Part shown: in pieces, positions 1,229-11,318 of the stretch
Numbering within the stretch: the first letter of the stretch is position 1
Layout: every line of letters begins with the position of its first letter
Source of the DNA: Pararhodobacter marinus
GTDB lineage: Bacteria > Pseudomonadota > Alphaproteobacteria > Rhodobacterales > Rhodobacteraceae
Direction: 5' to 3'
Assembly: GCF_003122215.1 (NCBI RefSeq)
Contig: NZ_QEYD01000004.1
Span: forward strand, 1 to 64,000
Length of the DNA stretch: 64,000 nucleotides
Position numbers and translations under genes: made by a program
Notes under the pieces: generated by a model
Databases searched by the model: none
Told to the model about the DNA's origin: nothing
What the model saw: only the letters and a program-made list of their open reading frames with translations

Positions 1229-2263
1229 TCAGCGCGGCGCGGCGTCGAACAGCACGCCGCCTTTCGCCGCGGGAAAACCGCAGGCCAGAACCGAGACCAG
1301 GTCGACCATGGCGGGTTCGACCCTCAGGGCATGTCCCGCGCGGATCAGGGCGCCGATCAGGCGGCGCCGGATCTCGGACTCAGGGATCTCGCGCGGGGAG
1401 AAACCGGCGAAATGCGCCTCCTCGCGGGCCAGATCCTCGATCAGCGGATCGATCACGCGCCCGCCGCCGCCGGGATAGCGATACCAGCCGACGCCCGCCT
1501 TGCGCCCGAGCCGTCCCTCTTGAACCATCCGGTCCAGCACGGGCAGGTCGTGGCCCGTGACGCGGTGACGCGCACGGGCGCGGTCGAGCCCGCGCAGATC
1601 CTGCGCGGCACAGGGGCCCAGCGCGAAGCCGTAGGCCTCGGCGGCGGCGTCGACCTCCCACGGGGTCGAGCCCTGGAACACCAGCGCCTCGGCCTCGTCT
1701 TCAAGCGCGGCGATCAGCTTCGCGCCCAGAAACAGCGGCACGATGACCGGCAGCGCCCCCAGCGCGCGGGCGAAACCCGACGCGCGCGGGTCCGAGCCCT
1801 TGGCGATCTCGATCAGGTCGATGGCGGGCGGCGGGGCATCGGTATCGATCAGCGCGACAGGTCCGCGCAACCCGTCCTTCAGCGCGCCAAGATTGACGCC
1901 GGGGCCCAGGCTGACGCGCAGCGCGTCGGGGGCGGTACGCGCCATCTCGCTCAGCAGGGCCAGCCGCAGGCCGATATCGCCCTCGGACGCTTCGACGATG
2001 ACCTCCGCGCCCTCCGCTGCGGCGCTGTCGGTCGTCAGCGTGATCCCGTCCAGTCGCCCGGCCCGGATCAGCGCATCGCGGGCGCGGGTCAGGCCCCAGT
2101 CATCGGCTTCGATCAGCGTGACCTCGGCGCCCGCCGTGACCATTGCCACGGCCAGCCCGAGCGCCTGCGGGCTGCCCCCTGCGACGGCGGCGCGGGTAAG
2201 CGCCATCGCCTCGCCCTGCGACAGCCGGGCGCGGATCGCGGCGAGGTGTTCGGAAGGGGTCAA
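1229..2263 (-). CDS. Divergent 3-hydroxyacyl-CoA dehydrogenase-like protein, last gene of the box cluster
   Basis: The product is 344 aa with the overall layout of 3-hydroxyacyl-CoA dehydrogenases: an N-terminal Rossmann half (residues 25-190), then a 3HCDH C-terminal domain (AAEAYGFALGPCAAQDLRGL) and RMVQEGRLGRKAGVGWYRY. Such an enzyme could oxidise 3-hydroxyadipyl-CoA downstream of BoxC. Two key features are abnormal. The dinucleotide loop reads VAGGSPQALG (residues 27-36) instead of GxGxxGxG. The catalytic His position aligns with Asp140, while the partner Glu152 is kept. Start: TTG at 2263 overlaps the boxR stop, suggesting translational coupling; the ATG at 2206 is an alternative. Catalytic activity is uncertain. 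Confidence 0.75.
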   Translation of the reverse strand: MTPSEHLAAIRARLSQGEAMALTRAAVAGGSPQALGLAVAMVTAGAEVTLIEADDWGLTRARDALIRAGRLDGITLTTDSAAAEGAEVIVEASEGDIGLRLALLSEMARTAPDALRVSLGPGVNLGALKDGLRGPVALIDTDAPPPAIDLIEIAKGSDPRASGFARALGALPVIVPLFLGAKLIAALEDEAEALVFQGSTPWEVDAAAEAYGFALGPCAAQDLRGLDRARARHRVTGHDLPVLDRMVQEGRLGRKAGVGWYRYPGGGGRVIDPLIEDLAREEAHFAGFSPREIPESEIRRRLIGALIRAGHALRVEPAMVDLVSVLACGFPAAKGGVLFDAAPR

Positions 2264-3177
2264 GACAGGAAGCCGCGCTCGTCGATCAGGGCCAGAAGGT
2301 CGGAGACGGACTCGTCGATGCTGCGCCCGGACGTGTCCAGTTTGGCGCGCGCCTGATCGTAGAGCGTCTCGCGGCTGGTCAGGATGAACTTGAGCTGGTC
2401 CATCGCTTCGGGATTGCCGGCCATGGGGCGCAGATCGCCCTGTTCCCGCACGCGCGCCATGTGTTCCGACGGGCTTGCCTTGATCCAGATCGTGTGGAAA
2501 TGGCCCAGCAGCGTCTTGTAGGTCTCGGGCTCGGACACGATGCCCCCTGCAACGGCCAGGATCATCGAATCGTGCGTGGCGATGATGCGGCCCAGCGCCT
2601 GCGCCTCCAGCCGGCGGTAGCCTTCCTGTCCGTAAAAGGCCATCACCTCGTTCACGGGCATCCCCGCCTGATCCTCGATCTCGCGGTTGAGTTCCACGAA
2701 AGGCAGGCCCAGCGCGTCGCCCGCCATCATGCCCAGCGTCGATTTTCCGGCGCCGCGCAGGCCGATCAGCGCGATCCGGTGACGACGCGCCGTGGCCTCG
2801 GGCTGCGGCGAGAGGATTTCGAGCACCTTCGCGCGGCGGTCGTTCGGAGCGCGGCGATAAAGGTCGGCCACCTGTATTGCCTCGGAGGTCCACGGGTCTT
2901 CTTCGCCGACCAGCCATTCGATCCGGTGGTCCAAGGCATCGGCCACACGCTGCAGAAGCCCGATCGAGATATTGCCTTCGCCCGCTTCCAGCAGCGCCAG
3001 GTAACGCGGCGACACGCCCGAGGATTCCGACAGCACGCGGCGCGGAATGCCCTTCAGCTCACGCGCCTTGCGCACCCGTTCGCCCACGCGCAGGATCAGC
3101 GCCCGCGCGGCGTCTTCGCCCAGGCTTCCGGTATCGGCTGAGACGGCTTCGCCGCGAAAGTTGGTGATCTCGGACAT
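2260..3177 (-). CDS. boxR: BoxR-type regulator: helix-turn-helix fused to a shikimate-kinase-like domain
   Basis: The product is 305 aa. Residues 28-92 form an XRE-type helix-turn-helix (RVRKARELKGIPRRVLSESS followed by GVSPRYLALLEAGEGNIS). Residues 132-300 form a shikimate-kinase-like P-loop domain with GLRGAGKST at 139-147. This fusion is diagnostic of BoxR/BzdR, repressors that sense benzoyl-CoA through the kinase-like domain. I chose the ATG at 3177 (MSEIT); an upstream TTG at 3270 would add a proline- and arginine-rich tail unlike the family. The gene sits inside the box cluster, with candidate TGCA-N6-TGCA operators in its own upstream gap, so autoregulation is likely. Confidence 0.92.
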   Translation of the reverse strand: MSEITNFRGEAVSADTGSLGEDAARALILRVGERVRKARELKGIPRRVLSESSGVSPRYLALLEAGEGNISIGLLQRVADALDHRIEWLVGEEDPWTSEAIQVADLYRRAPNDRRAKVLEILSPQPEATARRHRIALIGLRGAGKSTLGMMAGDALGLPFVELNREIEDQAGMPVNEVMAFYGQEGYRRLEAQALGRIIATHDSMILAVAGGIVSEPETYKTLLGHFHTIWIKASPSEHMARVREQGDLRPMAGNPEAMDQLKFILTSRETLYDQARAKLDTSGRSIDESVSDLLALIDERGFLS

Positions 3178-3337: not shown

Positions 3338-3351
3338 TGCACTATTCTGCT
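3338..3351. promoter_or_regulatory. Candidate BoxR operator between thioesterase gene and boxR
   Basis: TGCACTATTCTGCT matches TGCA-N6-TGCA with one mismatch in the second half. It overlaps the TAG stop (3342-3344) of the thioesterase gene and lies upstream of boxR on the minus strand. BzdR/BoxR are known to bind TGCA repeats spaced by six bases; binding here is inferred. Confidence 0.5.
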
Positions 3352-3761
3352 GAGGGTTCGAGATGCGCTTCGATCAGGGCCTTTACCTCGTCGGGGGGCG
3401 GGGCCTTGGTGAAGCTGCGCGCATCGGTGAAGACGCAGGTAAAACGCCCTTCGAAACAGGTCACGCCGTCCTGGCGCCCGACCACCCGCCAGTCGATCGA
3501 GGTCCGGCCCAGGCGCGTCGGCGCGACCTCGCAGATCAGCCGGTGGCGGGGCGTGATCGGCGCGCGGAAATCGAGGTTCATGTTGACGAAGGGCGAGCCG
3601 AAGCCGTGGTCCATCTCCATCTGGTACCAGCCGCCGCCGAACTTCTCTTCCCACCAGCCATTGATCGCATCCAGCGCGAACCACGGGATCCGCGCCGTGT
3701 AGACGATATTCGCCGGGTCGCAATCGCCCCACGCGACGCGGATCTTGTGCTGATAGGCCAT
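3342..3761 (-). CDS. Hot-dog-fold acyl-CoA thioesterase (4-hydroxybenzoyl-CoA thioesterase family)
   Basis: The product is 139 aa, typical of the family. The N-terminal VAWGDCDPANIVYTARIPWF motif is the signature of 4-hydroxybenzoyl-CoA thioesterase-like proteins, including the catalytic Asp of the GDCDPA segment. It should hydrolyse an aromatic or ring-cleaved acyl-CoA. In the box cluster the obvious role is relieving CoA sequestration when benzoyl-CoA or a dead-end thioester accumulates; that role is inferred. ATG at 3761 overlaps the boxA stop by one base (TGATG), so it is translationally coupled to boxA. The TAG stop lies inside a candidate BoxR operator. Confidence 0.88.
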   Translation of the reverse strand: MAYQHKIRVAWGDCDPANIVYTARIPWFALDAINGWWEEKFGGGWYQMEMDHGFGSPFVNMNLDFRAPITPRHRLICEVAPTRLGRTSIDWRVVGRQDGVTCFEGRFTCVFTDARSFTKAPPPDEVKALIEAHLEPSAE

Positions 3762-4942
3762 CAGTAGGTTTCGACGTGGTAGCGGCCCTCGTCGCGCATC
3801 GCGTCGCGCGTGGCATCCCAGGATTGGCCGGTGCTTTCACTGATCGAGCGGAACGCTTCCTCGACGCCCTGCTCCATGCCGCGCAGACCGCAGATATAGA
3901 TATGCGTCTTCGGATCGGCCAGAAGATCGGCCAGGGCCTCTTCTTCGTTCATCATCCGGTGCTGGACATATTCCTTCTGCTGGCCGGGCTGACGGCTGAA
4001 GACGAGGTGCTTTTTCAGCAGCTGCTCGGGCACTTTGCCCAAGGGGCCGAAATAGGGCAGCGAGTCGGGCGTGCGCGCCCCGAAGAACATCGTCATGTCG
4101 CCCGCGCCGCCGGCTTTCGACCGCTGACGCCGCATGGTGAAGGCGCGGAACGGTGCCGAGCCGGTGCCGGTGCAGACCATCAGCAAGCGGGCTGCGGGGT
4201 CTTCGGGCATCAGGAAGGTCGCGCCGAACGGGCCGGTGACCTTGATCTCGTCGCCGATCTTCAGGTCGCAGACATAGTTCGAGCACAGGCCCTTTTCCTC
4301 ACGCTTCACGGTCAGCGAGAGGTTGTTGTAATTGGGCCGTTCGCCGTCGCGCGGCGAGCTGACGGAATAGAGACGCGGCAGATGCGGCTTGCCGTCGGCA
4401 TCGGTGCCGGGGGGGATGATGCCGATCGACTGGCCTTCGAGCACCGGAAAGGGCTGGGCGCCGAAATCGAGGATGATGTGGCGCACGTCCGACCCCGATT
4501 CCTCGGAGGTCAGGCGGTAATTGCCGGTCACCCGCGCGGTCGCGGGTTTGCCCAGATTGTACAGGTTCACCGAGGGTTTCGCCGCGCTCGCGGGCGCTTT
4601 CGACTTGCCGCCGGCGCCGGCATGGGCCTCGGCCAGCAGCGCGGCCATCGCGTCGTCAAGCGCCTCGACGCCCGAGGCCTCGCCGATTTCTTCCTGCGCC
4701 GGCAGCTCGTCCCATTCGAACTGTTCGTCCAGCGAATAGGGCGTTTCCACCACCCGCCATTCGTCGATCGAACCCGTCGGGCAGACCGGGATGCAATCCA
4801 TGCAGAAATCGCATTTCTCGGCATCGACGACGACGTTGTTGTCGTCATGGGTGATCGCCTCGACCGGACAGGTCATCTCGCAGGTATAGCAGCGGATGCA
4901 GATTTCGGGGTCGATCAGGTGCTGTTTGAGGGGCTTGTTCAT
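3761..4942 (-). CDS. boxA: Benzoyl-CoA 2,3-epoxidase reductase component BoxA
   Basis: The product is 393 aa. The N-terminus carries two [4Fe-4S] ferredoxin motifs: C15-x2-C18-x2-C21-x3-C25 and C44-x2-C47-x2-C50-x3-C54. After an Ala-rich linker (about residues 80-125) comes a ferredoxin-NADP reductase module, with RLYSVSSPRDG for FAD, VCTGTGSAPFRAF for NADPH and a C-terminal aromatic residue (HVETY). BoxA passes electrons from NADPH to the BoxB oxygenase. I chose the ATG at 4942 (MNKPLK), which overlaps the stop of the 51-aa Cys-rich gene (ATGA) and so is translationally coupled to it. The order boxB, small gene, boxA ties all three into one transcript. Confidence 0.96.
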   Translation of the reverse strand: MNKPLKQHLIDPEICIRCYTCEMTCPVEAITHDDNNVVVDAEKCDFCMDCIPVCPTGSIDEWRVVETPYSLDEQFEWDELPAQEEIGEASGVEALDDAMAALLAEAHAGAGGKSKAPASAAKPSVNLYNLGKPATARVTGNYRLTSEESGSDVRHIILDFGAQPFPVLEGQSIGIIPPGTDADGKPHLPRLYSVSSPRDGERPNYNNLSLTVKREEKGLCSNYVCDLKIGDEIKVTGPFGATFLMPEDPAARLLMVCTGTGSAPFRAFTMRRQRSKAGGAGDMTMFFGARTPDSLPYFGPLGKVPEQLLKKHLVFSRQPGQQKEYVQHRMMNEEEALADLLADPKTHIYICGLRGMEQGVEEAFRSISESTGQSWDATRDAMRDEGRYHVETY

Positions 4943-5094
4943 GCGCTTGGCTTCCGGGTGTGCAGCACCGTCTCGGGCAGACGGTTCAGTTCGAGGAGGC
5001 TCCAGCAGCGCCCGGTGCAATCGGGGCAGCCGAGACAGGAACCTGGCTTGAGGGCATGGCGCTTGGCGTCAAGGGCAGTGCGTTCGACGGGCAT
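4939..5094 (-). CDS. 51-aa Cys-rich mini-protein with CX2CX2CX3C motif, between boxB and boxA
   Basis: I do not recognise this protein. It has a strong ribosome-binding site (GGAAGGGAGGT) seven bases before the ATG at 5094, and its TGA overlaps the boxA ATG by four bases. Residues 20-30 read CLGCPDCTGRC, giving Cys20, 23, 26 and 30 in the CX2CX2CX3C spacing of [4Fe-4S] ferredoxin sites. The flanks are basic at the N-terminus and hydrophobic/Leu-rich after the motif (WSLLELNRLPETVL). There is no signal peptide, so it is probably cytosolic. Plausible roles are electron relay or Fe-S/iron delivery to BoxAB, or a zinc-binding assembly factor. Gene status is well supported by signals; function is open. 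Confidence 0.8.
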   Translation of the reverse strand: MPVERTALDAKRHALKPGSCLGCPDCTGRCWSLLELNRLPETVLHTRKPSA

Positions 5095-5183: not shown

Positions 5184-6635
5184 TCAGGCCATGTACAGTT
5201 TCACATACTCGAAGTCGCCGGGCTTGTTGTCGATGCCGACTTTCGGCGGGGCGATCCAGCTGGCGAACTGACCGGGCTCGGTCACAGGCTTCATCAGCGA
5301 CTGGATGAAATCGCCATCGGCATGGGTCGGCAGCCAGTCGTTCTTGCGCTTGTCGTATTCTTCGCCCGACAGAAGGTTGCCATCGGGGTCGAAGGTCTTG
5401 CCCGAGAACACGCCGATCTGGCGGTGGAAGCTTTCATGCGGCAGCTTCAGTTCGAACTCGATCCCGGCTTTCTCGATGATCTTGTTCCAGCGGCCGACAC
5501 CGCCCGCCGCATCGCGGGTGTAATCGTCGCGCAGGCGCATGTTTATCGCGGTCAACGCCGGCACTTCGTGGCGCACCAGCTTGCCGTCGACGAAATCCCA
5601 CACCGGGTAGGTGTCGTTCTTCAGCTGGTGGTCGTCTTTCAGCCGGTGCTCCATGTAGCGGCCCTTGATGCCCGCGTTAAACGCGTTGGCGGCATTGGTC
5701 GAGACTTCCTGACCGAACAGGTCGAGCGACAGCGTGTAATGCAGGTTCAGCTTCTTCTGGATCGTCGGCAGGTCGATGACGCCCAGATCGCGGATCTTGT
5801 CGATGTCATAGGGGTCGGTGATGCCGTTGGCGTTCATCACCTCGCAGGTCTTTTCGATCGTGCGGCCCACGCCGGTTTCGCCCACGAACATGTGGTGCGC
5901 TTCCTCGGTCAGCATGAAGCGGCAGGTGCGCGACAGCGGGTCGAAGCCCGATTGTGCGAGCGATTCGAGCTGCATCTTGCCGTCACGGTCGGTGAAATAG
6001 GTGAACATGAAGAAGGACAGCCAGTCGGGCGTTTCCTCGTTGAAGGCGCCCAGCATGCGCGGCGCCTCTTCCGACCCCGAGGAACGGACCAGCAGGTCAT
6101 CGGCCTCTTCGCGACCGTCCTTGCCGAAGTATTTCTGCAGCAGGTACACCATCGCCCACAGGTGACGGCCCTCTTCGACGTTGACCTGGAACAGGTTGCG
6201 CATGTCGTAGAGCGACGGCGCGGTCAGGCCGAGGAAGCGCTGCTGCTCGACCGAGCCCGGCTCGGTATCGCCCTGGATCACGATCAGGCGCTTGAGCATG
6301 TTGCGGTATTCGCCCGGAACTTCCTGCCACGCGGGCTGGCCCATATGCTCGCCGCAGGGAATGACACGGCCCTCGACCTCGGGTGCCAGCAGAACGCCCC
6401 AGCGGTATTCCGGCATCTTGACGTAGTCGAACTTGGCCCAGCCTTTGGGGTCAACCGAAACGGCGGTGCGCAGGTAGACCATGCTCTTCTGGAAGTTCTG
6501 CGGGATCAGGTCGTTCCACCAGTTGATGTAACCGGGATGCCATTTCTCCAGCGCCTTCAGCACGCGCTTGTCCGACGACAGGCCCACATTGTTGGGGATC
6601 TGGGTGTCGTAGCTGACATTGATGAGGTCGATCAT
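5184..6635 (-). CDS. boxB: Benzoyl-CoA 2,3-epoxidase oxygenase component BoxB
   Basis: The product is 483 aa, the usual length. BoxB is a class-I-type diiron enzyme that epoxidises benzoyl-CoA to 2,3-epoxybenzoyl-CoA using O2 and electrons from BoxA. Diiron ligand motifs are visible as E155-x2-H158 (NVEEGRHLW) and E245-x2-H248 (LTEEAHHMF). The N-terminal MIDLINVSYDTQIPNNVGLS and RVIPCGEHMGQPAWQEVPGE are characteristic BoxB segments. I chose the ATG at 6635 because CCTGGAGGAG precedes it; an upstream in-frame codon would add ten poorly conserved residues. A 25-bp-arm inverted repeat occupies the short gap to boxC. Confidence 0.97.
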   Translation of the reverse strand: MIDLINVSYDTQIPNNVGLSSDKRVLKALEKWHPGYINWWNDLIPQNFQKSMVYLRTAVSVDPKGWAKFDYVKMPEYRWGVLLAPEVEGRVIPCGEHMGQPAWQEVPGEYRNMLKRLIVIQGDTEPGSVEQQRFLGLTAPSLYDMRNLFQVNVEEGRHLWAMVYLLQKYFGKDGREEADDLLVRSSGSEEAPRMLGAFNEETPDWLSFFMFTYFTDRDGKMQLESLAQSGFDPLSRTCRFMLTEEAHHMFVGETGVGRTIEKTCEVMNANGITDPYDIDKIRDLGVIDLPTIQKKLNLHYTLSLDLFGQEVSTNAANAFNAGIKGRYMEHRLKDDHQLKNDTYPVWDFVDGKLVRHEVPALTAINMRLRDDYTRDAAGGVGRWNKIIEKAGIEFELKLPHESFHRQIGVFSGKTFDPDGNLLSGEEYDKRKNDWLPTHADGDFIQSLMKPVTEPGQFASWIAPPKVGIDNKPGDFEYVKLYMA

Positions 6636-6733: not shown

Positions 6734-8392
6734 TCACACGCGCTGCATGTTGTAGTCGCCGCGCACGCCCGTGCCGTAGCGCTGCAGCGCGCCGTCGGTG
6801 CCGGTGGCGTTCGGGCGGTTGAAGATCCAGTTCTGCCACGCGGTCAGCCGGCCGAAGATCCGGGTCTCCATCGTTTCCGGGCCGGCGAAGCGCAGGTTCG
6901 CTTCCATGCCGGTCATCGCGTCAGGGCTGAACGAGGCGCGTTCTTCCATGAAGATGCGGATCTCGTCTTCCCAGTCGATATCGTCGAAGGCTTCGGTCAC
7001 AAGCCCCGCCTCCATCGCGTCCTCGGCTTCCATCGCTTCGCCCAGCTTGCCCTTGAGCGTCCCGACCGCCTCGGGCTCGCCCAGGAAGCGGGTCTCCAGG
7101 CGGGTCAGGTCGTTACCCATCGGGAAGGGGCCGAAATTGCCGTCCGACAGCGTCACGGTGGCGACCGGGCGGTTGTCGCCGTCGAACTCGCCGTCCATCA
7201 TGTAGCTGCGGTCCGAGGCCCAGAGCAGTTCGGCCAGGAAGCCCGCATAGCACGAGCCGTTCTCGACCAGCGCCACCAGCGAGCGCGAGGTGACGTCGAC
7301 GCGCTTCAGGACACGTTTCCAGTATTGCAGGATCTCACCCGCCAGCCAGTGGTCCTTGTTGGCCAGCATGAAGGCTTCATGCGCCAGCACGGCCTCGGGA
7401 TCGCCCTGCGTGCGGAACACGACAAGGCCCAGCTCCATCTCGTTGAGGCGCAGCTCCAGGATCGCGTCGTCGAATTCCCGCGCGAGCCGCAGCATCCAGG
7501 ACTGATCGCCCTCGGCCTCCAGCGCCTCGGTCGAGGCGGGCACGTCGCGGTCGGGGCCGTTCAGCGTGATCGTGACCTTGCGGCCTTCGCGGTCAACGTC
7601 GACCTCGACCAGCGAGTAATGGATCGAGCCGTTGTCATCGATGGTTTTCTTGAGCGGGTTCAGCGCGATGCCGGTGCCGGTGGCCTTGTCCGAGGCGGCC
7701 GCGAATTCCTTCGCGCGCTCGGCGACCGTCTCGTCGAATTTCGAGGTCGCGACGACCTCGTCCACCAGCCGCCATTGCTTGGCACGCTTGCCCTTGATGC
7801 CTTCTTCGAGCGAGCAGAAGATATCCGCCAGGTCGCGGCGCACCTTGCGCTTGTCGGTGACGCGCGTCAGCCCGCCGGTGCCGGGCAGCACGGCCAGAAG
7901 CGGCACTTCGGGCAGGGCCACGGACGAGGTGCTGTCATCGACCAGCATGATGTGGTTGCAGGCCAGCGCCAGCTCGTAGCCGCCCCCGGCGCAAGCGCCT
8001 TTCACGGCGGCGACGTATTTCTGGCCCGAATCGGCTTCGGCGGCTTCGAACGTGTTGCGGGTCTCGTTGGTGAATTTGCAGAAGTTCACCTTGTGGGCAT
8101 GGCTGGCGCCGCCCAGCATGCGGATATTGGCGCCGGCGCAGAACACCTTGTCCTTGCCCGAGCGCATCACCACGACCTTCACTTCGGGATGCTCGAAGCG
8201 CATGCGCTGCACGACATCCGCCAGCTCGATATCGACACCCAGATCGTAGCTGTTCAGCTTAAGCTGGTAGCCGTCGAACAGCCCGCCATTCTCGTCGACA
8301 TCCATGGTCAGGTTGGCGACGTCGCCGTCATAATCCACGCGCCAGTGGCGATACATGGACGGGTTGGTCTGGAAGTCGATTCGCTTGGTCAC
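6734..8392 (-). CDS. boxC: 2,3-epoxybenzoyl-CoA dihydrolase (benzoyl-CoA-dihydrodiol lyase) BoxC
   Basis: The product is 552 aa, the expected size for BoxC. It is an enoyl-CoA hydratase/isomerase superfamily member with two crotonase-like halves (VVVMRSGKDKVFCAGANIRM with GACAGGGYELALACNHIML, then SRSLVALVENGSCYAGFLAE). BoxC hydrolytically opens the epoxide ring, yielding 3,4-dehydroadipyl-CoA semialdehyde and formate. The start is GTG at 8392, preceded by CCAGGGAGGACC, a strong ribosome-binding site; no in-frame ATG comes before Met13. It is the first gene after a 138-base gap with candidate BoxR sites, so it probably has its own promoter as well as read-through from bclA. Confidence 0.96.
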   Translation of the reverse strand: MTKRIDFQTNPSMYRHWRVDYDGDVANLTMDVDENGGLFDGYQLKLNSYDLGVDIELADVVQRMRFEHPEVKVVVMRSGKDKVFCAGANIRMLGGASHAHKVNFCKFTNETRNTFEAAEADSGQKYVAAVKGACAGGGYELALACNHIMLVDDSTSSVALPEVPLLAVLPGTGGLTRVTDKRKVRRDLADIFCSLEEGIKGKRAKQWRLVDEVVATSKFDETVAERAKEFAAASDKATGTGIALNPLKKTIDDNGSIHYSLVEVDVDREGRKVTITLNGPDRDVPASTEALEAEGDQSWMLRLAREFDDAILELRLNEMELGLVVFRTQGDPEAVLAHEAFMLANKDHWLAGEILQYWKRVLKRVDVTSRSLVALVENGSCYAGFLAELLWASDRSYMMDGEFDGDNRPVATVTLSDGNFGPFPMGNDLTRLETRFLGEPEAVGTLKGKLGEAMEAEDAMEAGLVTEAFDDIDWEDEIRIFMEERASFSPDAMTGMEANLRFAGPETMETRIFGRLTAWQNWIFNRPNATGTDGALQRYGTGVRGDYNMQRV

Positions 8393-8526: not shown

Positions 8527-8540
8527 AGCACTATAGTGCA
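8527..8540. promoter_or_regulatory. Candidate BoxR operator at the end of the DUF309 gene
   Basis: AGCACTATAGTGCA is AGCA-N6-TGCA and contains the perfect 12-base palindrome GCACTATAGTGC (8528-8539). It overlaps the TAG stop of the DUF309 gene, the same arrangement as the site at 3338-3351 overlapping the thioesterase stop. It lies about 140 bases upstream of boxC. Confidence 0.5.
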
Positions 8541-8962
8541 CTTTCTTTCTCGACTTGCTGGCGCAGCGATGCGATTCGGGTCCGCGTCACGCCCATCGGG
8601 GCGGTGTTACCGGCGCCGAACGCCTCGGCCAGCGCGGCATCGGCCAGCGGCAGGATCCGTGCGGCTGCTCGCGCGCGTCCCATCCGGGCCTTCAGCGCCG
8701 CATTGGCCAGCTGGATCAGGCCGCGCACAAGATGGCGTTCCGCGCTGGCCGGGGGCAGGGCCATCCAGACGGGTTCCCAGAACTCGTGCGCTTCCCAGTA
8801 ATAGCGGGCCGCAAAGGCCTTGAACCCTGCATCAAAGGCTGGGCTTTGCGCCAGACGCACGGGGTCGTCGCTGTCGAGCCCGGCGCGCAGAGGGGCGAAG
8901 ACCGCCTCGTCCGGGCGCGCGTTGCGGCCCGGAAGATGCGGCGCGCCGGGAAAGTCGATCAT
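8531..8962 (-). CDS. DUF309-family protein of the box cluster
   Basis: The product is 143 aa. The central YYWEAHEFWEPVWMALPP segment and RHLVRGLIQLANAALKARMG are the hallmark of DUF309, a small all-helical family whose biochemical role I do not know. The conserved His and Glu residues in the EAHEFWE helix could bind a metal or ligand. ATG at 8962 overlaps the stop of the hydrolase gene by four bases (ATGA), so it is translated as part of the bclA-hydrolase-DUF309 unit. A link to benzoate metabolism is by context only. Confidence 0.85.
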   Translation of the reverse strand: MIDFPGAPHLPGRNARPDEAVFAPLRAGLDSDDPVRLAQSPAFDAGFKAFAARYYWEAHEFWEPVWMALPPASAERHLVRGLIQLANAALKARMGRARAAARILPLADAALAEAFGAGNTAPMGVTRTRIASLRQQVEKESAL

Positions 8963-9771
8963 GCGCCTTCGGGCATGGCCGCTTCATGCGCCATGAGCCG
9001 CTGCGCGAAGAACGAAACCGCATCCAGAACCGCCTGCGGCTGGTCGACATGCGGTGCGTGGCGGCAATCGTCGAGCGCCAGCACATCGACGGGCGCGTAA
9101 GAGCGGGTGGCGATCTCGTCCACCTGTTTCATCGTGCCGTACTGGTCCTGATGGCCCTGGATCACCAGCGCGGGAACGCGCAGGTAATCGATGACCTCGC
9201 TGACGTCCCAGCGCTTGAAATCGGGGTTGAGCCACGCCTCGTTCCAGCCCCGGAAGGTGGCTTCCGGGTCGCGGTGGTACTTGCCCATCCTGGCCGCCAT
9301 GTCGGGGCCGAAGACGGCGCCCGCGCGGGCGATTTCCGCCAGTCCCATCTCTTCAGTGAAGACATGCGGTGCCATCAGCACAATGCCCCGGGTGCGGAAG
9401 TCCTCGACCCGGCCGGCATATTCCAGCGCGATGGTCGCACCGTCGGAATGGCCCATCAGGATCACGCTGCCGGCGCCGATCTGATCCAGCACGTCGGGGA
9501 TCACGCCCGTCGCCTGACGGGTCATGTAATCGATCGGGAAGGGCAGGTCGCCCGCTTCCGACTGGCCGTAATTCTCGCGCGAGAAGGCAAAGACGCCCAG
9601 TCCCGTCGCCTGCGCCAGTTTCTCGGGGAAGTCCCGCCACAGCGCCAGCGATCCCAGCCCCTCGTGCAGCAGCACGATCACCGGGCCCGCGTCGCGGTCG
9701 CCCCAGCAGGCCCATTCCAGTTCCTTGCCGCCTGCGGTGAAGCGGCCTTTTCCAGCGTTCCAGTCGATCAT
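8959..9771 (-). CDS. Alpha/beta-fold hydrolase of the box cluster
   Basis: The product is 270 aa, with an oxyanion-hole segment (VIVLLHEGLGS), a nucleophile elbow GHSDGAT, a likely acid Asp in GHQDQYG and a catalytic His in DCRHAPHVDQP. The fold and triad are complete, so it should be an active esterase, thioesterase or C-C hydrolase. ATG at 9771 overlaps the bclA stop (ATGA). Being directly coupled to benzoate-CoA ligase, it might hydrolyse benzoyl esters to feed the pathway or remove a side product; the substrate cannot be read from sequence. Confidence 0.9.
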   Translation of the reverse strand: MIDWNAGKGRFTAGGKELEWACWGDRDAGPVIVLLHEGLGSLALWRDFPEKLAQATGLGVFAFSRENYGQSEAGDLPFPIDYMTRQATGVIPDVLDQIGAGSVILMGHSDGATIALEYAGRVEDFRTRGIVLMAPHVFTEEMGLAEIARAGAVFGPDMAARMGKYHRDPEATFRGWNEAWLNPDFKRWDVSEVIDYLRVPALVIQGHQDQYGTMKQVDEIATRSYAPVDVLALDDCRHAPHVDQPQAVLDAVSFFAQRLMAHEAAMPEGA

Positions 9772-11318
9772 TCGGCAGGCTCCGGTGTGCGCAGTTTGAA
9801 GCGCTGGATCTTGCCGGTAGCGGTTTTGGGAAGCTCGTCCACCACCGAAACCCAGCGCGGGTATTTCCACATCCCGATCTTCGCCTTCACATGCTCTTTC
9901 AGCGCGTCGGTGTCGATCTCGGCGCCCTCTTTCAGCACGATGAAGGCGGCGGGCTTGATCAGGTCCTTGTCATCGGCGCGGGCGACGACGGCGGCTTCCA
10001 GGATGCCGGGATATTCCACCAGCGCCTGTTCCACCTCGAACGGGCTGACCCAGATGCCCGAGACCTTGAACATGTCGTCCGTGCGTCCGCAATAGACGAA
10101 GCGGCCGTCCTTCGTGCGCTCGTACTTGTCGCCGGTGCGCGTCCAGTGCCCCTGGAACGTGCTCATGCTTTTCGAACGGCGGTTCCAGTAGCCTTCGGCG
10201 CTGGACGGCCCGCGAACCAGAAGCTCGCCGACATCGCCCTCGGCCACGTCCTCGTCATGCTCGTCGACCAGCCGGACCTCGTAGCCCGGGACCGCGATGC
10301 CCGACGTGCCATAGGCGATGTCGCCCGGACGGTTGGACAGGAAGATATGCAGCATCTCGGTCGAGCCGACGCCATCGACGATCTCGGCCGCCCAGAGCTT
10401 TTCCCACCGTTCGCCGATATCGCGCGGCAGCGCTTCGCCCGCCGAGGTGCAGAGCCGCACGCAATGGACGGGCGCGGTGCCCGCCTTTTCCTGCGCGGCA
10501 ACCAGCGCCGCGTAAAGCGTGGGCACGCCGCAGAAGATCGTCGGTTTCTCGCGGGCGAGGATGTCGAACACCGCGTCGGGCGTGGGGCGGCCGCCGAACA
10601 GGATCGTGGTGGCGCCCACCGACATCGGAAAGGACATGCCGTTGCCCAGCCCGTAGGCGAAGAACAGCTTCGCCGCGGAAAACACGGTGTCGTCCTCGCA
10701 GATGCCCAGAACCTGCGCGCCGAACGTGTCCGAGGTGGCTTTCAGGCTGGAATGAACGTGGCGCACGCCCTTCGGCACACCCGTCGAGCCTGAGGAATAC
10801 AGCCAGAAGGCCAGTTCGTCGCCATGCGCGTCGACCGTCTCGACGGGATGCGCGCCGTCCATGAAGGCATCGAAGCTTACGCATTCCTTGCCGTCGCAAT
10901 CGCGCGCTTCGCCGATCACCACGACCGCGCGCAGGAAGCGGTTGCCGTCGATGGCCGGTTTGACGGTGTCCCAGAGCTGTTCCGACACGACGAGGATCGA
11001 CGCCCGGCTGTCGTTCAGGATCGTTTCGTAGACCGAAGCCGATAGCAGCGTGTTCAGCGGCACCGGGATCGCGCCCGCTTTCAGCGCGCCCCAGAACACG
11101 ACCGGAAACTCGATCTGGTCGCGCACGATCATCGCCACGCGTTCTTCGCGCCGCACGCCATGCCGCTCCAGCGCTCCGCCGAACCGCGCGGCCTGTTCTG
11201 CCAGCGCGCCATAGGTCAGGCTGCGTTGGGCGCCGTCAGCCTCGCGGAAGGCGGTCTTGGCTGCCCGGCCTTCGTCCAGGTGGCGGTCCACGAAATAGAC
11301 GGCTGCGTTTTCGTTCAT
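9768..11318 (-). CDS. bclA: Benzoate-CoA ligase
   Basis: The product is 516 aa, an acyl-CoA synthetase of the ANL superfamily. Visible motifs are YSSGSTGVPKGVRH (174-187, ATP/AMP loop), GVGSTEMLHIF (317-326), TGDKYERTKDGRFVYCGRTD (395-414) and the C-terminal catalytic Lys in LPKTATGKIQRFKLR. It converts benzoate, ATP and CoA to benzoyl-CoA, AMP and PPi, the entry step of the box pathway. Position at the head of the cluster, with two TGCA-N6-TGCA sites just upstream, supports the benzoate assignment; a hydroxybenzoate preference cannot be excluded. It is followed without gaps by the hydrolase and DUF309 genes. Confidence 0.93.
   Translation of the reverse strand: MNENAAVYFVDRHLDEGRAAKTAFREADGAQRSLTYGALAEQAARFGGALERHGVRREERVAMIVRDQIEFPVVFWGALKAGAIPVPLNTLLSASVYETILNDSRASILVVSEQLWDTVKPAIDGNRFLRAVVVIGEARDCDGKECVSFDAFMDGAHPVETVDAHGDELAFWLYSSGSTGVPKGVRHVHSSLKATSDTFGAQVLGICEDDTVFSAAKLFFAYGLGNGMSFPMSVGATTILFGGRPTPDAVFDILAREKPTIFCGVPTLYAALVAAQEKAGTAPVHCVRLCTSAGEALPRDIGERWEKLWAAEIVDGVGSTEMLHIFLSNRPGDIAYGTSGIAVPGYEVRLVDEHDEDVAEGDVGELLVRGPSSAEGYWNRRSKSMSTFQGHWTRTGDKYERTKDGRFVYCGRTDDMFKVSGIWVSPFEVEQALVEYPGILEAAVVARADDKDLIKPAAFIVLKEGAEIDTDALKEHVKAKIGMWKYPRWVSVVDELPKTATGKIQRFKLRTPEPAE

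Follow-up and report, generated by a model that had tools for sequence, protein, structure and literature searches.

The window analysed here comprises the first 64,000 nucleotides of contig NZ_QEYD01000004.1 of Pararhodobacter marinus. A box cluster is encoded near its beginning, in which the gene of a 51-aa protein (MPVERTALDAKRHALKPGSCLGCPDCTGRCWSLLELNRLPETVLHTRKPSA) has, on the minus strand, boxB upstream and boxA downstream (Table 1). The box pathway is oxygen-using; BoxA is the reductase of benzoyl-CoA 2,3-epoxidase and BoxB its diiron subunit. The original prediction had described the small gene by its coordinates and length, cysteines at residues 20, 23, 26 and 30, a ribosome-binding site and a four-base overlap with boxA; all of this was confirmed, the overlap being ATGA and the strand minus. 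Through this overlap, translation of the small gene and boxA is probably coupled. BoxR is our assumed name for the regulator in Table 1. The DUF309 gene also belongs to many related box clusters. No Pfam or NCBIfam model matched the small protein of the window at E-values up to 1, and a published description of this family was not found in the open-licence literature.

Table 1. Coordinates of the small gene, its signals and its neighbours in the window, and of a second gene copy in Antarctobacter heliothermus.
Feature	Position	Strand	Basis or remark
51-aa four-cysteine protein gene, C20-X2-C23-X2-C26-X3-C30	4939..5094	-	ORF, homologue alignments
Shine-Dalgarno-like AAGGGAGG	5107-5100	-	5 nt 5' of ATG (5094-5092)
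ATGA stop/start overlap small gene/boxA	4939..4942	-	TGA 4941-4939, boxA ATG 4942-4940
Codons C20 to C30, conserved cysteine block (CLGCPDCTGRC)	5005..5037	-	translation, alignment
boxA, benzoyl-CoA 2,3-epoxidase subunit	3761..4942	-	TIGR03224, 3.3e-165
boxB, benzoyl-CoA 2,3-epoxidase subunit	5184..6635	-	TIGR03225, 6.5e-276
boxC, 2,3-epoxybenzoyl-CoA dihydrolase	6734..8392	-	TIGR03222, 4.1e-288
4HBT thioesterase-like gene	3342..3761	-	PF13279, 1.8e-10
BoxR-like regulator	2260..3177	-	start placed at MSEITNF codon
DUF309 protein of box cluster	8531..8962	-	PF03745, 5.3e-18
Alpha/beta hydrolase of box cluster	8959..9870	-	PF12697, 6.9e-15
Benzoate-CoA ligase family protein	9768..11318	-	TIGR02262, 2.5e-215
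Second copy in A. heliothermus (L184)	L184:6970-8820 (same place as L258)		acyl-CoA cluster, BoxR-like regulator

Homologues were searched in a first sample of 198 genomes from the family to which the window belongs, of Rhodobacteraceae type and presumably the Rhodobacteraceae in the wide sense; most named carriers in the 38-locus tree described below are placed by NCBI in the Roseobacteraceae or Paracoccaceae. boxB was present in 46 of the 198 genomes, and an ORF with the motif C..C..C...C was found downstream of it in 27 of these, in one case (G080) with boxA not next door. The claim that the gene is real and linked to box thus stands. One contig (G102) ends at boxB and is unassessable, hence the number of assessable boxB loci is 45. 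In the search for a small ORF beside boxB in relatives, as proposed with the original prediction, 27 of the 45 loci carry the motif and 16 are without the small gene. A search of those 16 whole genomes with a profile built from 49 homologues found no copy elsewhere; at several of the 16 loci the gene is missing, because the gap between boxB and boxA measures only 6-76 bases. In two genomes of the sample, G143 and the boxB-positive G009, a frameshift near a G run splits the small gene (loci L204 and L070), due to either sequencing error or decay.

Profile matches were obtained in 30/198 and 66/394 genomes of the family, the list of 394 including the carriers of the first sample. Of the boxB-positive genomes 27/46 were profile-positive versus 3/152 boxB-negative ones (Fisher p = 8e-18); by reading of the boxB loci, with G102 excluded, the figures are 27/45 versus 2/152 (p = 4e-19). 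Intact copies among the 152 boxB-negative genomes occur in G106 and G193 and the split copy in G143, and 149 are without a profile match. The larger sample added 36 carriers, 31 with boxB and five without (G617, G639, G666, G731, G788). In total, boxB is missing in eight of the 66 profile-positive genomes, one of which has the split gene. A tree of 64 BoxB sequences requires nine changes between presence and absence of the small gene, at least four of them forced by well supported branches; therefore, the gene came or went several times within box clusters.

A class-level sample comprised 385 genomes, of which at least five belong to the window's family, and scoring was limited to 16 first-look candidates per genome. 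Besides the copy of the window itself, the profile search, which may miss weak matches, returned seven matches, all of them weak. L102 and L103 were rejected as homologues outside the family, as their alignments show two-motif Fer4-like proteins, and L106 was rejected as an ORF without start codon. The other four (L104, L105, L107, L108) were judged by score or partial alignment. The matches outside the family are weak and probably ferredoxin-like or due to chance. boxB occurs in 81/385 class genomes, and at 29 class boxB loci besides the window (one is that of family genome G055) the motif was found downstream of boxB and outside boxA in none. At 16 of these 29 loci (L109-L137) there is no boxA within the 1.5 kb examined. 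A plasmid collection queried with one homologue gave no match.

For conservation analysis, two alignments were used. A1 consists of 29 rows chosen by the cysteine motif. A3 consists of 49 rows, i.e. the window sequence and 48 homologues from a scan of 84,980 species genomes with the single pattern CxGLCx[AE]LID, which yielded 49 loci, all belonging to the Rhodobacteraceae group as judged from titles; L182 was excluded from A3 because its match starts inside the gene. Invariant in A3 are M1, C20, C23, C26, G28, C30, L33 and P40 (window numbering). Exactly four cysteines are present in 47/49 rows, and 48/49 have a length of 51-58 aa, the remaining one 74 aa. Cysteine invariance in A1 and A3 is partly built in, since the rows were selected by motif or pattern. 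A fairer test is given by 37 profile-found copies from the 36 further genomes, of which only three fit the pattern; all four cysteines are kept in 37/37. Loss of the cysteines in related box clusters had been named as evidence against the original prediction; the cysteines are mostly kept, the exception being the box cluster of G139 with the variant spacing CX3CX2CX3C. The profile search missed the divergent copy in G017, in which the motif spacing is kept. The ATGA overlap recurs in 26/30, 14/28 and 19/25 boxA-containing loci of three partly overlapping sets. The small ORF is a real conserved gene family and not a chance ORF.

Several box clusters have an unusual composition. In G139 (L206:6573-8720) and G056 (L207:7244-9200) a flavodoxin-like gene replaces boxA between boxB and the thioesterase gene (for the G056 protein, PF00258, 2.3e-22). 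A search for boxA elsewhere gave nothing in the genome of G056 and, in G139, two partial matches that stay under the cut-off; a flavodoxin may supply BoxB in these two genomes. In G080 the cluster is split over two contigs (L055/L205), one with boxB, small gene, thioesterase and boxR, the other with ligase, hydrolase, boxC and boxA.

Among the 49 pattern loci, the order boxB - small gene - boxA is found in 30, and box genes are not adjacent in 19. For 18 of the 19 genomes no boxB and no boxA match was obtained, many being draft assemblies, and the small gene is open in all 18. The nineteenth, Antarctobacter heliothermus (L184), has two copies, one of them inside a box cluster. The other lies in an acyl-CoA cluster without box genes, together with dctPQM, genes of an SDR and a 3HCDH protein, a BoxR-like regulator (61% identity) and an AMP-binding ligase, which we take to resemble feruloyl-CoA synthase. 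L184 is also the single locus with a BoxR gene among the 24 that have no box genes next to the small gene.

The fullest box-positive order is dctPQM-ligase-hydrolase-DUF309-boxC-boxB-small gene-boxA-thioesterase-boxR, with parts varying among loci, followed by a convergent gene and a further one, presumably YcaQ-like and LacI-type, respectively. Of the 18 box-less genomes, 15 have dctPQM directly upstream of the small gene, and nine of these 15 still have the thioesterase gene downstream; in L170 only dctM is seen before the contig ends. Marinibacterium (L176) has retained the ligase, DUF309 and a boxA-like fragment (residues 7-72, 44%), and in G666 the order is dctPQM - DUF309 - small gene. 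The box-less loci look as if the surrounding box genes had been deleted while the small gene was retained. Wholly different neighbours, named by sequence reading, are found in two box-less carriers, G731 and G617, the latter with an aldolase-like gene. In G731 (L250, near 9183) the copy follows directly behind an operon read as a tungstate-type ABC transporter.

When 38 carriers (19 box-positive, 19 box-less) are placed on a tree of two neighbouring proteins, six changes of box state are required, at least four of them forced by well supported branches. Such a tree counts changes and by itself cannot separate loss from gain; the six are read as box losses because of the leftover neighbour genes at the box-less loci.

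Selection was examined by pN/pS, whereby the pooled values contain non-independent pairs. Pooled pN/pS is 0.207 for 12 box-less genes of the Leisingera clade (0.114 for core codons 25-51) and 0.194 for seven box-positive Ruegeria (core 0.128). In the frame control, performed for the Leisingera clade only, pN exceeds pS in both wrong frames. The small gene is under purifying selection in the box-less Leisingera clade. The 170-base upstream junction of the 12 loci is 69-79% identical to L151, compared to 51% for shuffles of one locus; therefore, the upstream side of the deletion represents one event before divergence of the clade. Since this event predates the divergence, the changes among the 12 genes would mostly postdate box loss. 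The downstream side varies, the thioesterase gene being missing in three of the 12. For other box-less pairs, compared over 51 codons, pN and pS are 0.15 and 0.65 (L176-L178), 0.23 and 0.55 (L176-L233), 0.24 and 0.56 (L178-L233), and 0.21 and 0.31 (L161-L170, ratio about 0.68). Retention without box is not universal, given the ratio for L161/L170, the split copy of G143 and the 149/152 boxB-negative genomes without a match.

The four cysteines had originally been described as having the exact spacing of a [4Fe-4S] ferredoxin site. This was too strong, as only one half-motif is present. The small protein shares C-X2-C-X2-C-X3-C with CxGCxxC with 2[4Fe-4S] ferredoxins and PsaC, which are its top PDB profile matches, but ferredoxins have two C-X2-C-X2-C-X3-C-P motifs, and the proline after the fourth cysteine is found in only 1/49 A3 rows and 1/37 profile-found copies. 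The best 60 of 85 matches in the PDB profile search (E up to 1) are all Fe-S proteins (PsaC, ferredoxins and others), the top one being PsaC at 9.2e-5 with both of its halves. Significant Fer4 matches, in contrast, are absent: the window protein has none, and Fer4_18 is weakly matched by 24 of the 49 members (best E 0.0021). The ferredoxin likeness does not extend beyond the cysteine loop, and the spacing alone could account for it. Each motif of a 2[4Fe-4S] ferredoxin gives three of its cysteines to one cluster and its fourth to the other; a single chain of the small protein would therefore need another geometry or a partner chain. The AlphaFold2 monomer models are poor, the window protein reaching a mean pLDDT of 52.6 and a Ruegeria homologue one of 62.0. 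Helices are present in both weak models and strands of at least three residues in neither; the low-confidence Ruegeria model has one helix on each side of the cysteine loop. The N-terminal ferredoxin domain of BoxA resembles the small protein in its Fe-S cysteine motifs and is encoded by the adjoining gene, but an origin from this domain was rejected, as profile similarity is absent (hhalign aligned 15 columns with a probability of 0.9%).

As the leading explanation, held tentatively and drawn from sequence comparison, we propose a small metal carrier, most likely an Fe-S protein, that works in cells degrading aromatic acids and whose partner lies outside BoxAB. These Rhodobacteraceae proteins of 50-60 aa would hold a metal centre, most likely iron-sulfur, in the C-X2-C-X2-C-X3-C loop between two predicted helices. 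During aromatic acid degradation, the protein would be made together with BoxB and BoxA via translational coupling. It would not be a fixed subunit of the BoxA/BoxB enzyme, because it is missing from many box clusters and is kept without box. Instead, the partner that it may serve as a redox or cluster carrier would be one that is also found in cells without BoxA and BoxB.

The strongest rival, which we consider unlikely, is a small zinc protein, in which the four thiolates would hold Zn2+ and the protein would act as a regulator or assembly platform rather than as an electron carrier. The missing CP proline (48/49), the helix-loop-helix prediction of low confidence and the oxygen-using pathway of the hosts are consistent with zinc, and a regulatory role would tolerate the changing gene neighbours. 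However, the leading PDB matches just described are Fe-S motifs, the 14 Pfam families listed for members contain no zinc family, the models common to most being Fer4, and the cysteine loop is tighter than that of common zinc fingers.

A specific form of an Fe-S carrier, rather improbable on present evidence, would be a half-ferredoxin homodimer, in which the fourth cysteines are swapped and two [4Fe-4S] clusters are held in a symmetric carrier of pre-duplication type. PMC12648291 describes semidoxins such as PD1 as short chains with a single C-X2-C-X2-C-X3-C motif, as in the small family. According to the same paper, semidoxins have about 28-30 aa, keep CPxxAI and are modelled with a beta-alpha-beta fold, whereas the small family has about twice this length and is predicted to be helical at low confidence. 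Natural semidoxins are reported almost only from anaerobes (PMC12648291, PMC13348028); the small family, in contrast, occurs in bacteria with an oxygen-using pathway.

It is improbable that the small protein helps in aromatic-acid uptake with the flanking TRAP transporter dctPQM, although dctPQM directly precedes it in the 15/18 boxB-less loci mentioned, and the gene orders in G666 and at the second L184 copy (dctPQM - SDR - acyl-CoA ligase with a BoxR-like gene) would fit. The nearest solved solute-binding protein is 7nr2. A TRAP system of R. palustris, TarPQM, takes up lignin-derived aromatics (PMC3610893). Against this role, no TRAP genes were found in the first 20 kb of the window or in the stretches searched around L140, L176, L178, L230, L233, L250 and L261. 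Moreover, dctPQM has long stood next to the locus, so that a deletion would be expected to leave the two adjacent.

The role proposed originally, in which the small protein would be a third, dedicated part of benzoyl-CoA epoxidase and would pass electrons between BoxA and BoxB or help to load the BoxA clusters or the BoxB diiron site, has become very doubtful. The position between boxB and boxA, the ATGA overlap with boxA and the strong statistical linkage to boxB speak in its favour, but an obligate component should neither be missing at boxA/boxB loci, as in 16 of 45 assessable clusters, nor outlast these genes, as the small gene does in genomes without a boxA or boxB match, being under selection there in the Leisingera clade. 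Furthermore, the small gene stands beside boxB with boxA elsewhere (G080, G613) or with no boxA match (G789 and G620, the latter 75% complete). PaaD/SufT-like accessory proteins, which are small, cysteine-bearing and encoded with phenylacetyl-CoA epoxidase, are similar in that a small cysteine-bearing protein is encoded beside CoA-epoxidase genes, but by description they differ in size and cysteine pattern. A function as Paa helper was rejected: paaA is present in 56/65 genomes (15/19 carriers without adjacent box, 15/19 boxB genomes without an intact standard copy and 26/27 boxB genomes with such a copy), a distribution so even that it does not account for the small gene. Among the boxB-less carriers, which are draft assemblies, 4/18 gave no paaA match. 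Finally, a leader ORF, whose translation rather than its product matters for boxA expression, would fit a short ORF with a good ribosome-binding site overlapping boxA, but is hardly credible, as protein-level constraint persists where boxA was not found.

The small gene family represents a conserved component, without Pfam or NCBIfam match, for an aromatic pathway that depends on oxygen and has been studied well, in a large family of bacteria. If the half-ferredoxin dimer were true, it would be a free-standing carrier recruited by several aromatic-acid gene clusters, and a natural half-ferredoxin, so far reported almost only from anaerobes, would exist in bacteria using an oxygen-dependent pathway. 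With this family it can be tested cleanly whether Fe-S proteins that are very short and have a single motif work in aerobes, and in the box-less Leisingera strains the small protein's own function is set apart from that of BoxA and BoxB.
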